Both the position numbers and the translations under genes were made by a program. The notes beneath the pieces were generated by a model. That model ran no database searches, was not told the origin of the DNA, and saw only the letters and a program-made list of their open reading frames with translations. Shown here piece after piece: positions 17,719-61,998 of a stretch of DNA of 64,000 nt. The stretch is from Burkholderiales bacterium (GTDB taxonomy: Bacteria; Pseudomonadota; Gammaproteobacteria; Burkholderiales; JAEUOS01): NCBI GenBank assembly GCA_947473125.1, contig CANJDH010000004.1:34825-98824 (forward strand), in the 5' to 3' direction. Each line of letters begins with the position of its first letter. The stretch's first letter is position 1.

Positions 17719-18114
17719 CTACTTCGGCGCGTCGTACAGGGGCTTGCCCTTGTCGACAATATGCACGGTATAGAGCTTGATGACGACGTCGCCGGCGACC
17801 TTCCATCCGGCGTGCGGTACATCGCGCAGGTTCATGATCGGCGCCCCGGTCGGAAACGGAACCGCGTCTTTGCCGGGGAGCTGAATCATCCCGCCCTGCA
17901 ATACGATGCCGGCTTCGACACCGTGATGAATATGCAGCGGAATCGATTCGCCGGGCTTGTATTCCGAAACCGACGAGACCACTTCCATGCCGGGCGCACC
18001 CGACAAATCCACCCGGCGGATTTCCTTGCGTTGCGGCGAATCCTGCGCCATCGCGCCAAACGGCAGCATCGCTACGCAGGCTGCCGCCAGCAAAACATTT
18101 CGAATTGACCCCAT
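17719..18114 (-). CDS. exported cupin-domain protein
   Basis: A 131-aa protein with a cleavable signal peptide (NVLLAAACVAMLPFGAMAQ) and one cupin barrel: YKPGESIPLHIHHGVEAGIVLQGG carries the His-His-Glu metal motif and RDVPHAGWKV the second motif. ATG 18114 has a strong GGAGGAG ribosome site; the longer track ORF is not credible. Exported small cupins of this type are widespread in Burkholderiales, usually without known substrate. It is divergent from the TctC gene at 18266, with about 150 bp between them holding both promoters. Confidence 0.86.
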   Translation of the reverse strand: MGSIRNVLLAAACVAMLPFGAMAQDSPQRKEIRRVDLSGAPGMEVVSSVSEYKPGESIPLHIHHGVEAGIVLQGGMIQLPGKDAVPFPTGAPIMNLRDVPHAGWKVAGDVVIKLYTVHIVDKGKPLYDAPK

Positions 18115-53387: not shown

Positions 53388-54431
53388 TCAACCCTCCCAT
53401 GCCGCAACAGCTGGCGCATGGGTCTGACGCGTGTGTTTCATCACCTCCGGGTTGAGCAGATGCGCCGGGTGATCTCCCCGCATGATGTGGATCACCTGCT
53501 GTGCGCTGAGGATGGCTCGCTCGCGATGGGCCTCGCGCGATGCGCCGGCCACATGCGGGGAGAGCAGGACGTGGTCCATGCCAAACAAAGCGTTACTCGA
53601 TCCAAGCGGCTCGTGCTCGAAAACGTCCAGCGCAGCACCAGCGAGGCGACGCTCGCGCAACATCAGCTCGAGCGCAGCGTGATCCACCAGACTGCCCCGC
53701 GATACATTAATCAGAAACGCGTGGGCAGGCAAAGCCGTCAGTTGCGCCTTTCCGATCAGGTGGCGCGTCGCCGGCGTCGCCGGCGCGGTGATCACCAGAA
53801 AATCGACCTGCCCGCACAGTGCTGCAAGGTCGTCCACGCGTTCGGTCTCCAGTGCGTCAAAGCGCGACGCGGGCGTGGTGGGACTGTAAGCAACAATGGT
53901 CATGCCAAACCCGTCACGGCAAATCCGCGCAACGCGGCTGCCAATCGCTCCCAATCCGACGATGCCGAGGCGCTTGCCGGACAATTCCGGGCCTGGCTCG
54001 CTAAAGAATGCCTCGCGACACGACCAGCCGTCACGACGCAAGGTGCGGTCTGCCAGAGCCAGGCGCCTGGCCAGGCCGAGCATCATGCCGACCGCATGCT
54101 CGGCCACCGCTCCCGCGCCCACGCCGGGACAGTTCACCACGGCAATGCCAAGGTGTGAGGCAGTCTGCAAATCGATGTTATCGATACCGGCCGAGGCGGC
54201 TGCAATCACGCGTAACGCCGGCATGCGTTGCAGCAGATCGGCCCCCACGGCACCGGGCAGGCGTACGCACAGCACCTGCGATTGTGCGAGCGTCAGCGCA
54301 TCGGCATGCGGTGTAGGTGCCGCTGGCACACACCGGATACGCGCCCCAGCCGACGCAAGCATGGCATGCCCGGCCGGATCGCCCATGGCATTCAACAGCA
54401 GGGCGTTGAATGCCTTCGCGTGGCTGCTCAC
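53388..54431 (-). CDS. D-2-hydroxyacid dehydrogenase family protein
   Basis: A 347-aa NAD-dependent dehydrogenase: AASAGIDNIDL (substrate loop), GKRLGIVGLGAIGSRVARIC (NAD fold), catalytic Arg in FLINVSRGSLVDHA, Glu in FEHEPLG and His in LLSPHVAGAS. All three catalytic residues are kept, unlike the homologue at 28108. GTG 54431 is chosen since it overlaps the TauD stop by 4 bp (GTGA); the track ORF starts 99 bp further upstream, inside TauD. It ends the long IclR-side operon and probably oxidises or reduces a hydroxy/oxo-acid intermediate. Confidence 0.89.
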   Translation of the reverse strand: MSSHAKAFNALLLNAMGDPAGHAMLASAGARIRCVPAAPTPHADALTLAQSQVLCVRLPGAVGADLLQRMPALRVIAAASAGIDNIDLQTASHLGIAVVNCPGVGAGAVAEHAVGMMLGLARRLALADRTLRRDGWSCREAFFSEPGPELSGKRLGIVGLGAIGSRVARICRDGFGMTIVAYSPTTPASRFDALETERVDDLAALCGQVDFLVITAPATPATRHLIGKAQLTALPAHAFLINVSRGSLVDHAALELMLRERRLAGAALDVFEHEPLGSSNALFGMDHVLLSPHVAGASREAHRERAILSAQQVIHIMRGDHPAHLLNPEVMKHTRQTHAPAVAAWEG

Positions 54432-55327
54432 ACCGGACGCGTGCCCCGGATCGTGGTGCGATGCATGTGCCGACGCAGTGGCAATTGGTAGTCGCCAATT
54501 GCCTGGTGCATCGACGAGCAGTTGTCCCACATGACCAGGTCGCCCAGCTTCCAGCGATGCCGGTAAACATACTGGGGTTGAATGATGTGGTCGATCAGGC
54601 TTTTGAGAAGCGCACGTCCCTCTTCGAGTGGCATGCCGACCACCTCGCTGGTAATCAGTTCGCTTGCATAAAGGGACTTGCGCCCGGTAATCGGATGGGT
54701 GCGCACCAGCGGATGGTCGACGTCCGGCACTTCGACCTTGGCCTTGTCGCGCTGCGCCTTGAGGTGGGCGAGCGTGGCGGAGTCAATATTCCCAGGATCC
54801 GCCTCCGCCTGGGCGGCCGCTGCGGCGGAACGCGCGCTGAAACTGTTGACAGCGCGCAGGCCGGTGATGCGTGCCTTCACGGAATCAGGCAGACCGTCGT
54901 AAGCCGCAGCAGTGCTGGCGAACAGGGTATCGCCAAGCGGTTCGCCGTTTTGCATTGGCACTTCAAGCGCATACAGGAATGCCCCGCGGGAGGGCTCCGG
55001 CATGAAGCACATGTCGCTGTGCCACATCCGCCCGGCATCGGCCATGCCGATCGGCTTGCCGTTTTCAATGATGTTTGAGACCACGAAAATTTCCGGGTTG
55101 CCCGGCAGGTTGTACGCATCAATGACGAATTTTTCGAGCCCGCCAAATCTGCGACTGAACGCCAGTTGTTGCTCCGGCGTGAGCGTCTGGCCGGTCACGA
55201 CCACGACGCCGTAGGTGTTCCATGCGTCTTCAATCGCCTTGAATTCGGCATCGCTCAAATTGGCCAAATCAACGCCATGGATCTTGTGGCCCAGCGGGGC
55301 AGAGGTGTATTCGATGCGCAGGCTCAT
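54428..55327 (-). CDS. TauD/TfdA family Fe(II)/2-oxoglutarate dioxygenase
   Basis: A 299-aa oxygenase. The iron ligands are His103 and Asp105 in MWHSDMCFMP and His274 in SSMHQAIGDY; the 2-oxoglutarate Arg is in the terminal LRRHMHRTTIRG. N-terminal IHGVDLANLSDAEF is typical of TauD/TfdA. Start ATG 55327 replaces the longer track start. Members oxidise taurine, 2,4-D, and other sulfonates or ethers, usually releasing an aldehyde or keto acid. Here it is cotranscribed with a class II aldolase upstream and a hydroxyacid dehydrogenase downstream (4-bp overlap), so substrate hydroxylation within that pathway is likely. Confidence 0.93.
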   Translation of the reverse strand: MSLRIEYTSAPLGHKIHGVDLANLSDAEFKAIEDAWNTYGVVVVTGQTLTPEQQLAFSRRFGGLEKFVIDAYNLPGNPEIFVVSNIIENGKPIGMADAGRMWHSDMCFMPEPSRGAFLYALEVPMQNGEPLGDTLFASTAAAYDGLPDSVKARITGLRAVNSFSARSAAAAAQAEADPGNIDSATLAHLKAQRDKAKVEVPDVDHPLVRTHPITGRKSLYASELITSEVVGMPLEEGRALLKSLIDHIIQPQYVYRHRWKLGDLVMWDNCSSMHQAIGDYQLPLRRHMHRTTIRGTRPV

Positions 55328-55402
55328 GACAGGGTTCCCATTTGAGATGATTGGAATCGAGATGGATGGAATCGAATTGATGGAGCCAGCGGCCACCGGG
55401 GT

Positions 55403-56185
55403 TCAATCTCGGTACGAACGATCCTCGCGATCAATCGCACGCAGCATCGCCGGCCACTCGAGCTCACCATAGGTGCGCCGCACCCCGGGGGTATAGAGCG
55501 TGGCGGTCTGTCTGGCAACTTCTTCGTCAGGCAAATTGAGTTCGGTGCGCGCACTCATGGCGTCAACCTGCGCCTTGCATGCCATCTCGAGCCAGTACAT
55601 GTTGTTGAAGGCCTCGGCAATGCTGCGACCGGCAGTCATCAGGCCGTGGTTGCGCATGATCATCACATCGGTGCTGCCCAGATTGTTGATCAGGCGCACG
55701 CGCTCAGCCACGTTGATGGCCGGGCCTTCGTAGTCGTGGTAACTCACCCGCCCGTAAAAGCGCATCGCAGTCTGCGTCAAGGGCAGAAGCCCGCACTTCA
55801 TGGCCGACACCGCCATGCCGGCGCGCGTGTGGGTGTGGATGACACAAGCCACATCCGGCCGTGCCGAATGCACGGCGCCGTGGATCACGAAGCCGGCCGG
55901 ATTCTGGTCGTAGGCCACGTCGGGCCGGAGGATGACCTTGCCCTCCAGGTCAATTTTGTACATATCCGACGCACGCATTTCGTCGTACAGCATGCCGTAG
56001 GGATTGATCAGTACCTGGTCATGGTGGCCGGGAACACGCACCGTGATGTGGTTGTAGGTGAGGTCGGACATTCCGTATTTGGCGATCAGCCGGAAACAAG
56101 CGGCCAAATCCACGCGGGCGTTCCATTCTTCTTCGCTCACCTGCTGCCGGATCGTCAAGGTGTGTGCTGCCGGGAGTACGGACAT
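55403..56185 (-). CDS. class II aldolase/adducin family protein
   Basis: A 260-aa zinc-dependent aldolase or decarboxylase. Metal ligands are in VIHTHTRAGMAVSA (two His) and the third His in MIMRNHGLMTAG; YNHITVRVPGHHDQVLINPYGML and the GFVIHGAVHSARPDV segment are typical of the family. ATG 56185 has AAGGAGA upstream. Cytoplasmic. It may cleave a sugar- or hydroxyacid-type intermediate. It is the fifth gene after the IclR-side promoter, between the D-glutamate-cyclase-like and TauD genes. Confidence 0.92.
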   Translation of the reverse strand: MSVLPAAHTLTIRQQVSEEEWNARVDLAACFRLIAKYGMSDLTYNHITVRVPGHHDQVLINPYGMLYDEMRASDMYKIDLEGKVILRPDVAYDQNPAGFVIHGAVHSARPDVACVIHTHTRAGMAVSAMKCGLLPLTQTAMRFYGRVSYHDYEGPAINVAERVRLINNLGSTDVMIMRNHGLMTAGRSIAEAFNNMYWLEMACKAQVDAMSARTELNLPDEEVARQTATLYTPGVRRTYGELEWPAMLRAIDREDRSYRD

Positions 56186-56213
56186 GACTTTCTCCTTGGA
56201 GGGTTCCACAGAC

Positions 56214-57227
56214 TCATGCAGTCAGGCGGGCCATCTGCAGGACCTCCCGCACGAGCGTAAAAATGGCATGGTTGCCGTCGAGCGATACGTCGTCAACGCT
56301 GGGCACGGCCAGTCCGGTGTAGCCGTCAAAAGCGCCACCGGCAAGCGCCCCATGGATGGCCGCTTCGGCAGCATCCCATTCCGGCATGAGGTCCAGGCGC
56401 CGGAGCGCAATGCACAGGGCAGCCGCGATCGCGTAGGCGCCCCAGTTAGACACGGAGGCCGGCAGCATGTAATCCACATCGGTGGCATTGAGAATGCCGC
56501 CTTTGCATGGGCAACCGCAATCACGGCCGTAGGGGTGGGTCGCCTCAAGAAAGCTGCGCAGACGCCCGAAGCCAATTTCATTGCCGCCATCTCCCACCGC
56601 TACGGTGAGGATGCCGCGCGCGCGGGCCGCGTCGGCAAGCTGGTGCGCGTGGGCGACCCAATCGGGCGCCTTGGGTTTGCCCGTGCTGTTGTGAAAAATA
56701 CCGTGCGCATTGGGGCCCGGCTTTTCAATGAAAAATACGGCAGCGATATTGGTGTGCTGCCCGAGGAACGCATCAACAAAGCGCTGGCCGGCCTCGGCAC
56801 CGGTCGGATAGGCCAGTACTTTCGCGGCATTACTGCGTTGCTGCCACGCCCCCGGCTCCAGAACCGGCGAGCCGGCAGCTTCGACGGAACGCCGCACGCC
56901 ATCTTCGAACGGCGCTTCGGTCAGCACGCAAGAACGCACACCGAGCGCGCCAAAGACACGGCACAGCAGCGCCACGCCGGGCGGGCCATCGGTCTCGCCC
57001 TTTGGCAGCCAGACCGGATTGCCGGTTCCGGTGACCAGCACCACGGTGCTGTCCGGCCTGGAGATCGCCTGTTCCAATGCCTGCGCAATCTGGCCGCACA
57101 GGGGAGCGTCGCCATGCGCCTGGCGTGCCGCCTGATAGCGCAACCGCGTGCCGCCTTGCTGGGTCGGTTTTTTCTTGAACTCGAGGTTGGCGATCTGATC
57201 GAGATACTCGTAATACCACTGCGTCAC
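56214..57227 (-). CDS. D-glutamate cyclase-like protein (DUF4392)
   Basis: A 337-aa protein whose second half matches DUF4392, the catalytic domain of D-glutamate cyclase: VTGTGNPVWLPKGETDGPPGVALL, FIEKPGPNAHGIFHNSTG, TVAVGDGGNEIGFGRLR and NWGAYAIAAALC. In mammals the enzyme interconverts D-glutamate and 5-oxo-D-proline. GTG 57227, 4 bp after the upstream stop, is the only in-frame start that avoids overlap with that gene; the track ORF adds unrelated sequence. Placement between a 3-hydroxyisobutyrate-dehydrogenase-like gene and a class II aldolase is unexpected and points to a ring-opening or cyclisation step in an unknown catabolic route (inference). Confidence 0.82.
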   Translation of the reverse strand: MTQWYYEYLDQIANLEFKKKPTQQGGTRLRYQAARQAHGDAPLCGQIAQALEQAISRPDSTVVLVTGTGNPVWLPKGETDGPPGVALLCRVFGALGVRSCVLTEAPFEDGVRRSVEAAGSPVLEPGAWQQRSNAAKVLAYPTGAEAGQRFVDAFLGQHTNIAAVFFIEKPGPNAHGIFHNSTGKPKAPDWVAHAHQLADAARARGILTVAVGDGGNEIGFGRLRSFLEATHPYGRDCGCPCKGGILNATDVDYMLPASVSNWGAYAIAAALCIALRRLDLMPEWDAAEAAIHGALAGGAFDGYTGLAVPSVDDVSLDGNHAIFTLVREVLQMARLTA

Positions 57228-57231
57228 GGCA

Positions 57232-58128
57232 TCATTCCTTTGGCGGAGTACCCTGGAAGGAAATGTCGAGCCAGCGCTCCCATAACTTTGAAATCGAGGC
57301 GTAGTCGAGGCCGGCCAGCCCTTCACCCATCGCCATTTCGTAGACGCTGTGCGAGGCCTGCAATGTGAACAGGGGTACGCCCATGGCACGCCCAAACTGC
57401 ATGGCCAAAGCGGAGTCCTTGCACGCATTGGCGGTATTCATGCCGCCTTCAAAATCCTGGCCAAGAATGCGTTCGCCGAGCCGATGCGTGAGCGGCCGCA
57501 GCAAGCCGGACTCGCGGCGCATCAGTTTGTAGAACAGCTCGATCGGCATGCCGGCCTTGACGCACATTGCCCCTGCTTCGAGCAGCATCACCATCGTGGT
57601 GTGGGCCACGGCATTGACCACCAGTTTGGCGCGCATGCCATTGCCGGTCGGGCCGAGGAAGAAAATCTCCTCGGCGATCGACTCCAGTATCGACTTGACG
57701 CGGTCGTAGTCGGCTTGCGATCCGCCAACCAGAAACGTGGTCTGCCCGCTGGTCAGCTTTTTCACCCCGCCCACGATCGCCGAATCCATGACCGTCGCGC
57801 CATGCGGCGAAAAGAACGTCACCAGGGCATCGATGTCGTCCGGACCAACCGTGCTGCTCTCGACGATCAAGCGACCTTGGAGCGCCCCCTCGGACAGACT
57901 GCGTGCTGCTGCTAGCGATGCCTCAGGCGTGGGCAGCGACAGCAGGATGATGTCGGTGGCATTGGCGACACCGGCGGCGGAGTCAACAACGCGTACACCG
58001 GCATCCCGGGCCAGCGCGCATCGGGCCGCGTCACGGTCGTAACCGACGACGTCGCATTTTTTCAGGAGGGCAGTTGCCAGGCTCAGCCCGGCATTGCCCA
58101 GGCCAATCAGGCCAACCAGCGGTTTCAT
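57232..58128 (-). CDS. NAD(P)-dependent oxidoreductase, 3-hydroxyisobutyrate dehydrogenase family
   Basis: A 298-aa beta-hydroxyacid dehydrogenase. The cofactor fold is VGLIGLGNAGLSLATALLK, the substrate motif is VMDSAIVGGVKKLTSGQTTFLVGG (replacing the usual DAPVSGG), the catalytic Lys lies in GNGMRAKLVVNAV, and EGGMNTANACKDSALAM follows. The Asp-Arg after the first fold (VGYDRD) favours NADP less clearly. It overlaps the MBL hydrolase gene by 4 bp upstream and is 4 bp from the DUF4392 gene downstream, so it is firmly in the operon. Confidence 0.92.
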   Translation of the reverse strand: MKPLVGLIGLGNAGLSLATALLKKCDVVGYDRDAARCALARDAGVRVVDSAAGVANATDIILLSLPTPEASLAAARSLSEGALQGRLIVESSTVGPDDIDALVTFFSPHGATVMDSAIVGGVKKLTSGQTTFLVGGSQADYDRVKSILESIAEEIFFLGPTGNGMRAKLVVNAVAHTTMVMLLEAGAMCVKAGMPIELFYKLMRRESGLLRPLTHRLGERILGQDFEGGMNTANACKDSALAMQFGRAMGVPLFTLQASHSVYEMAMGEGLAGLDYASISKLWERWLDISFQGTPPKE

Positions 58129-58934
58129 GGGTTTTGCTGCTCCGTAGAAGATTGACGTGCGTCGTCATACAGCGATGCATCGTGTTCGAGCCACCAGGTG
58201 GGGAAAAAGGGCACGCGGGTTGCGACCACGTCGGTCCAGTTGCCGGAGAGCTTGCGCTCGAGAAGAGCAACATGCGCGAACGCCCGCGACATCACAAAGT
58301 GCTTGTGGCCGGGTAGCAGCACGTCCACCTTGAGCCGGTCGAGACGGCGTACCGAATCGCGGTAGGCACGAAAATCGGTTTCAGCATTGACCGTACCGTG
58401 TCCGCCCTCGGCAAAGCAGGTATCGCCACCAAAGAGCACGGTCCGCCCGTCGAACCTCGTTACCAGGGAAATTGAGTCGTTACTGTGCCCGGGCGTGTGG
58501 ATAACCTCGAGCTCGAGCGCACCGACCCGGATGACATCTCCATCGTCGAGCGGGTACTCCACCTGCGCCGCCTCCGAAGGAATACCGTGTTTCTCGACAT
58601 GTGACGTGGGCCACTTTGTTTTCTCGAGCGTGTCGACACCTAGGCGATGCACGGCCAGGGCCGCACCGGTCTCACGCTTCCACCAAGCCGCGCCACGCCC
58701 ATGATCCCAGTGGGAGTGGGTCAGGATGAGCTTTTTGATGGAAGCGAGCGCGATGCCGTCGGCAAGGATGCGCTCTTTCATCAACTCCGGTTCAATGCCG
58801 CTGCCAACGTCAATCAGTGCCGCTTCGCCGCTACTTTCGATCAAATAGACGTGCGAGTCGCACGGATGCGACAAGCCCACGCCACCACCGCCGACCATAT
58901 AGATCGCCGCATTCGGCGCCGACATGATTTTCAT
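58125..58934 (-). CDS. MBL-fold metallo-hydrolase
   Basis: A 269-aa metallo-beta-lactamase-fold enzyme: LILTHSHWDHGRGAAWWKRE (HxHxDH), IHTPGHSNDSISLV (third His), VLFGGDTCFAEGGHG (bridging Asp) and VLLPGHKHFVMS (last His). The active site is complete. ATG 58934 (or 58925) lies 11 bp after the TctC stop; the track start at 59168 is within that receptor gene. The enzyme probably hydrolyses an ester, lactone or thioester in the pathway. It overlaps the next gene by ATGA. Confidence 0.9.
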   Translation of the reverse strand: MKIMSAPNAAIYMVGGGGVGLSHPCDSHVYLIESSGEAALIDVGSGIEPELMKERILADGIALASIKKLILTHSHWDHGRGAAWWKRETGAALAVHRLGVDTLEKTKWPTSHVEKHGIPSEAAQVEYPLDDGDVIRVGALELEVIHTPGHSNDSISLVTRFDGRTVLFGGDTCFAEGGHGTVNAETDFRAYRDSVRRLDRLKVDVLLPGHKHFVMSRAFAHVALLERKLSGNWTDVVATRVPFFPTWWLEHDASLYDDARQSSTEQQNP

Positions 58935-58945
58935 GTTGAACGTGG

Positions 58946-59929
58946 TCAGTTGACGACGGCACCGGAGTACTTCACAACCTCGGCCCACTTCTTGATTTCG
59001 CGCTGGATGTGTGCCGCCAGCTGCGCCGGGCTCGAGCCGATCGGCACCGCCCCCTGCCCCATCAATTTCTCGCGAACGTCGGGCATGGCCACGACACGCG
59101 CAACGTCGGTCGAGATTTTCTGGATGATGTCCTTGCTGGTCCCGGCGGGAGCAAGCACGCCGTACCACGAGCCGACGTCATACCCGGCCACACCGCTCTC
59201 CTGCATGCTGGGCAGGTCCGGCAGTGCGCGATTGCGCTCCGGGCTTGTCACGGCGAGCGCCCTGAGCTTGCCCGATTTGATGTGCGGCAGTGCCGATGGC
59301 AGGGCATCGAAAGTCATCTGGATCTGGCCTGACAGCAAATCCGTGAGCATGGTCGAGGTGCCCTTGTACGGTACGTGGACAGTCTTGACGCCGGCGAGTG
59401 CATTGAACATTTCGCCGGCAAGGTGGTGCGAGCTGCCATTGCCGGACGAGCCGAAATTGACCTTGCCCGGATTGGCCTTGGCAAAAGCGATCAGCTCGGC
59501 AACCGAGCTCACCGGCAGAGAAGAGTGAACCAGCAAGACACTGACTGTCGAAGCGGCAAGCGATATCGGCTCAAAATCCTTGACCGGCTCATAGGGCAGC
59601 TTGGCAAACAGGCTTGGATTGATGCCGTGCGTCCCGACGGTCGACATGAGCAGGGTGTAGCCGTCGGCCGGCGCCTTGGCACCGGCCTCTACCCCGACGT
59701 TGCCACCGCTCCCGCCGCGGTTGTCGACGATCACCGCCACTTTCCACAGTTCGCTCAACTTCGCTGCGACGATCCGGGTTACCGCATCGCTTGCGCCGCC
59801 TGCCGTGTAAGGCACAATGAACCGGACCTGCCGCTCCGGATAATCAGCAGCACTTGCCGCGCCGCCCATCGCGAGACAAGCGGGCAGGACAAGACCCCAA
59901 AGCAGATTTACCAGAAAATGCGGGCGCAT
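58946..59929 (-). CDS. Bug/TctC family substrate-binding protein (IclR-linked, left arm)
   Basis: A 327-aa receptor with signal peptide (LWGLVLPACLAMGGAASA), then YPERQVRFIVPYTAGGASDAV, TVGTHGINPSLFAKLPYEPV, NFGSSGNGSSHHLAGEMFN, VPYKGTSTMLTDLLSGQIQM and LPDLPSMQESGVAGYDVGSW. ATG 59929 has AAGGAGA. It is strikingly similar to the receptor at 61024 on the other side of iclR, sharing whole stretches such as SSGNGSSHHLAGEMFN. It is the first gene of the left operon and defines the pathway's uptake step; no TctAB is present. Confidence 0.94.
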   Translation of the reverse strand: MRPHFLVNLLWGLVLPACLAMGGAASAADYPERQVRFIVPYTAGGASDAVTRIVAAKLSELWKVAVIVDNRGGSGGNVGVEAGAKAPADGYTLLMSTVGTHGINPSLFAKLPYEPVKDFEPISLAASTVSVLLVHSSLPVSSVAELIAFAKANPGKVNFGSSGNGSSHHLAGEMFNALAGVKTVHVPYKGTSTMLTDLLSGQIQMTFDALPSALPHIKSGKLRALAVTSPERNRALPDLPSMQESGVAGYDVGSWYGVLAPAGTSKDIIQKISTDVARVVAMPDVREKLMGQGAVPIGSSPAQLAAHIQREIKKWAEVVKYSGAVVN

Positions 59930-59995
59930 GTTTGTCTCCTTGATGGTTGTGTTGAGGCGCATCGGCGTTCCGGATTTCACTCACGCCATGCCCTT

Positions 59996-60016
59996 ATGTG
60001 CATATTGTGAACAATG
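59996..60016. promoter_or_regulatory. IclR-type operator, copy 1
   Basis: ATGTGCATATTGTGAACAAT followed by G is a 21-bp site repeated nearly exactly at 60106. Inside it TGTgCA and TGaACA form an imperfect dyad (TGTNCA-N5-TGNACA), as expected for an IclR-family dimer. It lies 67 bp upstream of the left TctC start. Confidence 0.72.
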
Positions 60017-60105
60017 CCGAAATTTGTCCTTGCCGGGCACTTGCTGTTATGGGATCGCATTCTCGTCGTTTTGGCAGCAGCTTGCAAATGATAGTTCGCG
60101 GTAAT

Positions 60106-60126
60106 ATGTGCATATTGTGAACATTG
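60106..60126. promoter_or_regulatory. IclR-type operator, copy 2
   Basis: ATGTGCATATTGTGAACATT followed by G differs from copy 1 at one base. The two copies are 110 bp apart in direct orientation, close to an integral number of helical turns, which would suit looping or co-operative binding. It covers the TTG codon at 60124, arguing that the regulator gene really starts further down at GTG 60148. Confidence 0.72.
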
Positions 60127-60147
60127 CACTTCGTGAGGCAAACTGTC

Positions 60148-60954
60148 GTGCCGGCGCCTGGCAACAGCCCAACTACCAGTAGGGTCAGCGGTACCCAGAG
60201 CATCGCTCGTGCGGTTGCGCTGCTACGCGCTGCAGCCCAGAGCAATCGCCAGGGCAGCACGGTCGCGGAACTGGCCAGCCGGACGGGAATTGACCGCAGC
60301 ACCACCCACCGCATGCTCAAGTGCCTGGCCAAGGAGGGACTGCTCGGCAGCGCCGAGGAGCCTATGCGCTATTTTCTTGGCCCACTTGCGTATGAACTCG
60401 GCCTTGCAGCCGCCGAACGCCTTGACCTGCGCAAGCTGTGCCGCCCGGCCATGGCGCGCATTGCCGAGTTGACCGGTGATACCGTATTTCTAATGCTGCG
60501 CGATGGCTATGACTCGGTTTGTGCCGACCGGCTCGGCGGCCATTATCCGGTCAAAACGTTCGTGGTTGACGTCGGTACGCGCCGCCCCCTCGGCATTGGC
60601 GCCGGCAGCTTGGCCATTCTGGCCTCGCTGCCCCCTGAAGAAGCGGAAGCCGCGATCCTTGCCAACGAATGCAGGATCGATCAGTTTGTCGGCATGAGCG
60701 CAGCGCATCTGCGCAGGCTGGCGGCCAAAGCACGCACCGAGCAGCGCGCCATCATGGACGTGATTGACGTCAAGGACGTACAGGCGATCGCGGTTCCGAT
60801 CCGGGCACCGAGCGGATATGCGGTCGGTGCGCTCAGCATTGCGGCCATCGCTTCGCGCATGACGGCCCGAAGGCGCACAGAGTTGTTTGGCATTCTGCAA
60901 CGTGAAGCCGGCCTGCTGACCGGGACGCTCGGCTCCAGCGCCTGGCTTGGCTGA
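60148..60954 (+). CDS. IclR-family transcriptional regulator
   Basis: About 268 aa. The N-terminal winged helix is GTQSIARAVALLRAAAQSN, then VAELASRTGIDRSTTHRMLKCLAKEGLL; the C-terminal IclR effector domain follows (LGPLAYELGLAAAERLDLRK, MLRDGYDSVCADRLGGHYPV, PLGIGAGSLAILASLPPEE and a terminal VGALSIAAIASRM). I choose GTG 60148 (GAGG upstream) over the track TTG 60124, which lies in an operator. It sits between two divergent arms that each start with a TctC receptor and is their probable regulator, likely responding to an acidic metabolite. Confidence 0.92.
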   Translation: MPAPGNSPTTSRVSGTQSIARAVALLRAAAQSNRQGSTVAELASRTGIDRSTTHRMLKCLAKEGLLGSAEEPMRYFLGPLAYELGLAAAERLDLRKLCRPAMARIAELTGDTVFLMLRDGYDSVCADRLGGHYPVKTFVVDVGTRRPLGIGAGSLAILASLPPEEAEAAILANECRIDQFVGMSAAHLRRLAAKARTEQRAIMDVIDVKDVQAIAVPIRAPSGYAVGALSIAAIASRMTARRRTELFGILQREAGLLTGTLGSSAWLG

Positions 60955-61023: not shown

Positions 61024-61998
61024 TTGAAACTGACCCGCTCGTTCCGGAACTGCCTGACCATCATTGCAGCGCTTGCGAGCGTCCCACTCGCCAGCGCGGA
61101 CACCTTTCCTGCGCGCCCGGTGCGCCTGATCGTGCCCTTTGCCACGGGTGGCACCAGCGACATCGTTTCGCGCATGCTCGCCAAGGAGTTGAGCGATGAG
61201 TGGAAGATGTCGATCGTTGTCGACAATCGGCCTGGTGCCGGGGGCATTCTCGGATCAGAAATAGTGGCCCGCGCCGCTCCGGACGGCTACACCCTGCTCA
61301 TGGGCACGGTGGCCACCCACGGCATCAATGCCAGCCTCTATAGCAAGCTACCTTACGATACAGTCAAGGACTTTGACCCGGTGTCACTGGTGGCATCGAC
61401 CCCCAGCGTGCTGATGGTGCATCCGTCCGTTCCGGTCAGTAGCGTTGCGGAGTTCATCGCCTACGCCAAGGCCAACCCGGGCAAGCTCAATTTCGGATCG
61501 TCCGGAAACGGTAGTTCGCATCACCTCGCTGGCGAAATGTTCAATTCCGAGGCCGGCGTGAAGATGGTCCATGTGCCCTACAAGGGCACGGCAGCCGCAA
61601 TTACAGACCTGCTTGCCGGGCAGATCCAGTTGACCATCGATACGCTTCCGTCTGCGATGCCCTATGTAAAGTCGGACAAGCTCAAGGCTCTGGGTGTGAC
61701 CAGTACCCAGCGCTATCGCACCTTGCCAGACTTGCCGGCGATTGCCGAATCGCTGCCAGGCTACGAAATTGCCTCCTGGTATGGCATGCTGGCCCCGGCC
61801 GGCACGCCGCCGGACGTGATCCGGAAAATCGGCGAAGATGTCGGACGCATCGTGCGTCGGACTGATTTTCGCGACAAGCTGCTCGCACAAGGCGCCACCC
61901 CGGTGGGCAGTACTGCCGAGCAATTCCGGACCCACATCCAGAACGAACTGGCAAAGTGGGCCAAGGTTGTGAAGAGCTCCGGCGCGCGCGTCAACTGA
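61024..61998 (+). CDS. Bug/TctC family substrate-binding protein (IclR-linked, right arm)
   Basis: A 324-aa receptor. It starts at TTG 61024 with a strong AGGAG 7 bp upstream, so the rare start codon is well supported. Signal peptide (RNCLTIIAALASVPLASA), then FPARPVRLIVPFATGGTSDIVS, TVATHGINASLYSKLPYDTV, NFGSSGNGSSHHLAGEMFN, VPYKGTAAAITDLLAGQIQL and LPDLPAIAESLPGYEIASW. It is the closest relative in the window of the receptor at 58946. It is 69 bp after iclR and 19 bp before an FAD monooxygenase. Confidence 0.94.
   Translation: MKLTRSFRNCLTIIAALASVPLASADTFPARPVRLIVPFATGGTSDIVSRMLAKELSDEWKMSIVVDNRPGAGGILGSEIVARAAPDGYTLLMGTVATHGINASLYSKLPYDTVKDFDPVSLVASTPSVLMVHPSVPVSSVAEFIAYAKANPGKLNFGSSGNGSSHHLAGEMFNSEAGVKMVHVPYKGTAAAITDLLAGQIQLTIDTLPSAMPYVKSDKLKALGVTSTQRYRTLPDLPAIAESLPGYEIASWYGMLAPAGTPPDVIRKIGEDVGRIVRRTDFRDKLLAQGATPVGSTAEQFRTHIQNELAKWAKVVKSSGARVN

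Follow-up and report, generated by a model that had tools for sequence, protein, structure and literature searches.

A conserved pair of predicted IclR-family operators between divergent iclR and tctC genes in a Burkholderiales bacterium

Two near-identical repeats that separate divergently oriented iclR and tctC genes are very probably operators of the adjacent IclR-family regulator, which would likely repress both divergent units. The repeats lie in a window of 64,000 nucleotides, the whole stretch of DNA that was analyzed, and the joint control of both arms by IclR that the initial annotation had proposed is well supported by comparative sequence evidence, namely a conserved pair of sites within one clade of the regulator. 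For an IclR subgroup that had not been characterised, the analysis yields an operator definition (TGTKCAYAWTRTGMACA-like) and predicts a minimal regulon, which makes the regulator readily testable. The subgroup is predicted to control a TctC-linked uptake/catabolic cluster.

Table 1 Predicted operators and neighboring genes in the window
Feature	Position	Strand	Remarks
Operator 1 (predicted), TGTGCATATTGTGAACA	59997..60013	.	Centre 60005, tctC side, 76 bp upstream of tctC ATG
Operator 2 (predicted), TGTGCATATTGTGAACA	60107..60123	.	Centre 60115, iclR side, abuts TTG 60124
iclR-family regulator	60124..60954	+	Start TTG 60124, GTG 60133 or GTG 60148
tctC, Bug-type periplasmic solute-binding protein, first gene of divergent operon	58946..59929	-	Pfam TctC 8.3e-70
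Metallo-beta-lactamase-fold hydrolase, likely in tctC operon	58125..58934	-	M at 58934; Pfam Lactamase_B 8.9e-27
3-hydroxyisobutyrate-dehydrogenase-like enzyme, likely in tctC operon	57232..58128	-	Pfam NAD_binding_2
D-glutamate-cyclase-like (GLUCM-like_C) protein, likely in tctC operon	56214..57428	-	Pfam 2.4e-50; N-terminal part of ORF uncertain
Class II aldolase family protein, possibly in tctC operon	55403..56209	-	Pfam Aldolase_II 2.3e-51
TauD-family dioxygenase, possibly in tctC operon	54428..55396	-	Pfam TauD 1.4e-66
Second tctC paralog, downstream of iclR	61024..61998	+	Possibly co-transcribed with iclR, gap ~70 bp

The pair of 21-mers picked out by the initial annotation, ATGTGCATATTGTGAACA[A/T]TG, is real and found exactly where it was placed (59996-60016 and 60106-60126), and the two copies do differ at a single base. 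The full repeat spans 23 bp and has a single mismatch (TATGTGCATATTGTGAACA[A/T]TGC, at 59995-60017 and 60105-60127, a spacing of 110 bp); the flanks outside it are unrelated, and similarity ends abruptly. The dyad recognized in each copy is also genuine, reading TGTGCA-TATTG-TGAACA with 6 of 8 positions symmetric. The sites had further been described as directly oriented, which holds as they are read in the window; however, the orientation of a near-palindrome says little, and it varies among relatives, as expected of a palindrome. We give practically no weight to the idea that the two repeats are a chance similarity or a dispersed repeat, as 100 dinucleotide shuffles returned no match to the repeat with up to 3 mismatches allowed, and a pattern search of the 4.88 Mb genome finds exactly two copies of the 17-bp core TGTGCATATTGTGAACA, both adjoining iclR. 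Conservation of the pair in relatives argues the same way. The genome contains six further scattered matches to the 17-mer, each with three mismatches; a match of this kind at position 17751 of the window sits within a cupin-like frame.

The protein encoded next to operator 2 belongs to the IclR family, with Pfam matches to HTH_IclR (1.9e-11) and IclR_C (1.6e-17). No NCBIfam equivalog reaches its cutoff for this protein, and a literature search found no paper on the regulator. On the other arm, tctC starts at ATG 59929 and is preceded by an AAGGAGA ribosome-binding site. The tctC-led divergent cluster is retained in several relatives: a tblastn match to the metallo-beta-lactamase-fold hydrolase adjoins tctC in L031, L032 and L070, the 3-hydroxyisobutyrate-dehydrogenase-like gene is syntenic in L025, L026, L028, L029, L031, L032 and L066, and the D-glutamate-cyclase-like gene is syntenic in L025, L026, L028 and L029. 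The regulator gene is flanked by two tctC paralogs, one on each strand, and the gap between iclR and the downstream paralog contains no operator match at up to 3 mismatches. The downstream tctC (61024) matches the divergent tctC genes of Achromobacter/Bordetella at ~67-71%, and the divergent tctC of the window matches them at ~59-62%. The divergent tctC of L025 is closer to that of the window (67%) than to the downstream paralog (57%).

We drew 24 relatives of the regulator from one scan of named genomes and further orthologs from whole-genome searches. The locus is rare, with a close ortholog in 6 of 269 genomes of one relative's family, and a search of the family to which the genome itself belongs returned no orthologs of the regulator. 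Sites were scored with a symmetrised weight matrix in leave-one-out fashion, using 399 segments of 300 bp as controls. In each of the 13 motif-bearing loci (the window, L025-L032, L034, L036, L066 and L070), the interval from iclR to the divergent gene contains two strong sites and no more, both scoring at least 16.8, and the third-best position never exceeds 11.3; in the control segments the best score is at most 11.5 and the second-best at most 7.1. In a separate mismatch count, none of 396 control segments had a match at 4 mismatches or fewer. At every locus one of the sites is close to iclR and the second is close to the divergent gene, which is tctC in 10 of the 13; the divergent gene is a different one in L027, L030 and L036, and the second site is nonetheless kept.

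In a protein tree, the pair is carried by 13 of the 15 members of one IclR clade (support 92/82), the pair not being seen in members L033 and L084, and none of the tree rows outside the clade is scored as carrying it. The motif also goes with the recognition helix, which reads D/N-R-[STA]-T in its carriers; relatives with Q-R-P-T lack the motif, and it is absent from the order-level relatives L010-L024 (44-51% identity). Such covariation of paired sites with clade and helix is the signature of a regulator with its own operators. It also bears on whether the sites might belong to another regulator, such as a CRP-like protein, whose half-site TGTGA is present in the motif, or a second paralogous regulator. 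We judge this highly improbable, as the sites track both the IclR clade and the recognition helix, exact sites in the genome are confined to the iclR locus, and the TGTGA-N6-TCACA arrangement of a CRP-type site is absent when read from the sequence. Upstream of iclR in L010-L014, a different conserved palindrome (approximately TGTCCAGATACCGGACA) accompanies the QRPT helix, and it is possible that this represents a natural specificity switch among related IclR proteins.

If the sites are operators of IclR, each 17-bp imperfect palindrome would be bound by an IclR dimer, with the iclR-side operator providing autoregulation and the tctC-side operator controlling the divergent operon. Besides tctC, this operon would encode the metallo-beta-lactamase-fold hydrolase, the hydroxyacid dehydrogenase and the D-glutamate-cyclase-like protein, and probably further proteins. 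IclR is likely to repress both units rather than activate them; a substrate or intermediate of the cluster's pathway may be the effector that lifts repression. A search for a sigma-70-like promoter, against which the sites could be placed relative to -35 and -10 elements, found none. Alternatively, effector-bound IclR could activate the tctC operon from operator 1 while repressing its own gene from operator 2. The IclR family comprises repressors, activators and dual regulators (PMC8222616), and operator 1, centred 76 bp before the tctC start codon, could lie upstream of its promoter; yet the distance from this site to the divergent start codon ranges between 25 and 106 bp across relatives, a spread more in keeping with steric repression than with the fixed position of an activator. 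We consider activation from operator 1 rather unlikely, and favor repression of both units.

At 10 of the 13 loci, an in-frame iclR ATG or GTG begins exactly 2 bp past the centre of the iclR-side operator; in L028, L031 and L032, there is no other ATG, GTG or TTG between the operator start codon and the aligned domain start, and at several loci the operator-embedded start has no obvious ribosome-binding site. In most of the subgroup, the start of translation thus appears to fall within the operator. Relative to the start codon, the site centres of IclR-family regulators peak at -22 and between -3 and +1 (PMC8222616), and the overlap fits the second of these peaks. The overlap suggests that IclR, once bound, would block its own gene right at the beginning. 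The window differs: the GTG at the equivalent position (60117) is not in frame with iclR, and a stop codon (TGA 60118) interrupts the iclR frame within operator 2, so iclR must start at 60124 or later. Of the candidate starts, GTG 60148 lies 33 bp downstream of the centre of operator 2 and has a GAGG at 60135-60138, 9 nt before it. More tentatively, and less likely than not in our view, the iclR-side operator and the translation start may form one element in this subgroup, in which IclR on the start codon controls a leaderless or near-leaderless transcript; if so, the palindrome would be constrained by both functions.

A spacing of about ten and a half helical turns had been taken to suggest DNA looping. 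The figure is right at 10.5 bp per turn, at which 110 bp corresponds to 10.48 turns, but this half-integral value puts the two sites on opposite faces of the DNA and so disfavors simple looping. Across the 13 loci, the inter-operator spacings are 86, 89, 95, 100, 100, 108, 110, 119-121 and 128 bp, and the spacings show no significant clustering by helical phase (p about 0.14 once close relatives are collapsed, over helical repeats from 10 to 11.5 bp); the preferred phase shifts with the helical repeat assumed. A model in which IclR tetramers bridge both operators, closing a 110-bp loop that would lock both promoters in a repressed state, would account for two strong sites always occurring together. 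Tetramers are possible in IclR-family proteins (PMC8222616), and at a helical repeat of 11.0 bp the spacing of 110 bp is an integral 10.0 turns. The variable spacing and the out-of-phase value at 10.5 bp per turn weigh against such a loop, as does the published distance of 18-22 bp between tandem IclR sites attributed to tetramers (PMC8222616), compared with about 110 bp here. We find the loop improbable and looping as first suggested to be unsupported; the pair is accounted for by one site for each divergent unit, with no need of a loop.

Other candidate sites were observed away from the locus. A third near match in the same genome, AGGGCATATTGTGCACA at C112:473, lies upstream of another tctC and near a GntR-like gene. 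It lies in a composite GTGCACA repeat. The sequence GTGCACAATTGATCGCATATTGTGCACAATATGCCC (L073:454-489, C112 of the same genome), a composite of alternating boxes upstream of another tctC with a GntR-like gene nearby, is possibly a third regulon target or another regulator's site. Three Alcaligenaceae genomes carry GTTCATATTGTGCTC / GAGCACAATATGAAC off the iclR locus (G402:C19:129213, G403:C13:937768 and G407:C30:118066), perhaps representing another IclR operator.

The predicted operators resemble those already described for the family. In general, a regulator of the IclR family controls its own gene along with one or two neighboring operons (PMC8222616), and the group 1 IclR operators of Suvorova and Gelfand 2021 (PMC8222616), with the consensus GKTYCRYW3-4RYGRAMC, are likewise 17-bp palindromes adjoining the IclR gene, through which the regulator would control its own expression and that of one neighboring operon. 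On its reverse strand (TGTTCACAATATGCACA), the present operator agrees with this consensus at 14 of 17 positions, counted by hand. The half-site TGTKCA, in contrast, is particular to the present subgroup, and while published tandem sites are 18-22 bp apart, the pairs described here are separated by 86-128 bp, one site per divergent unit. The NpdR operator GTTCMRYATMRTGAWS also resembles the present motif (PMC8222616). The MhpR operator of E. coli, GGTGCACCTGGTGCACA, shares the 17-bp frame and has similar half-sites (GTGCA / TG-ACA); however, the MhpR regulon, that of 3-hydroxyphenylpropionate, differs, and the present protein falls below every NCBIfam equivalog cutoff. TtgV, an IclR-family member with structures (2xrn/2xro) related in sequence to the present protein, covers adjacent sites within one operator region, whereas the palindromes here are 110 bp apart and unlike a TtgV-type tetramer operator in this respect. 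The pair is an ordinary divergent arrangement, standard for the IclR family, in an uncharacterised IclR subgroup.
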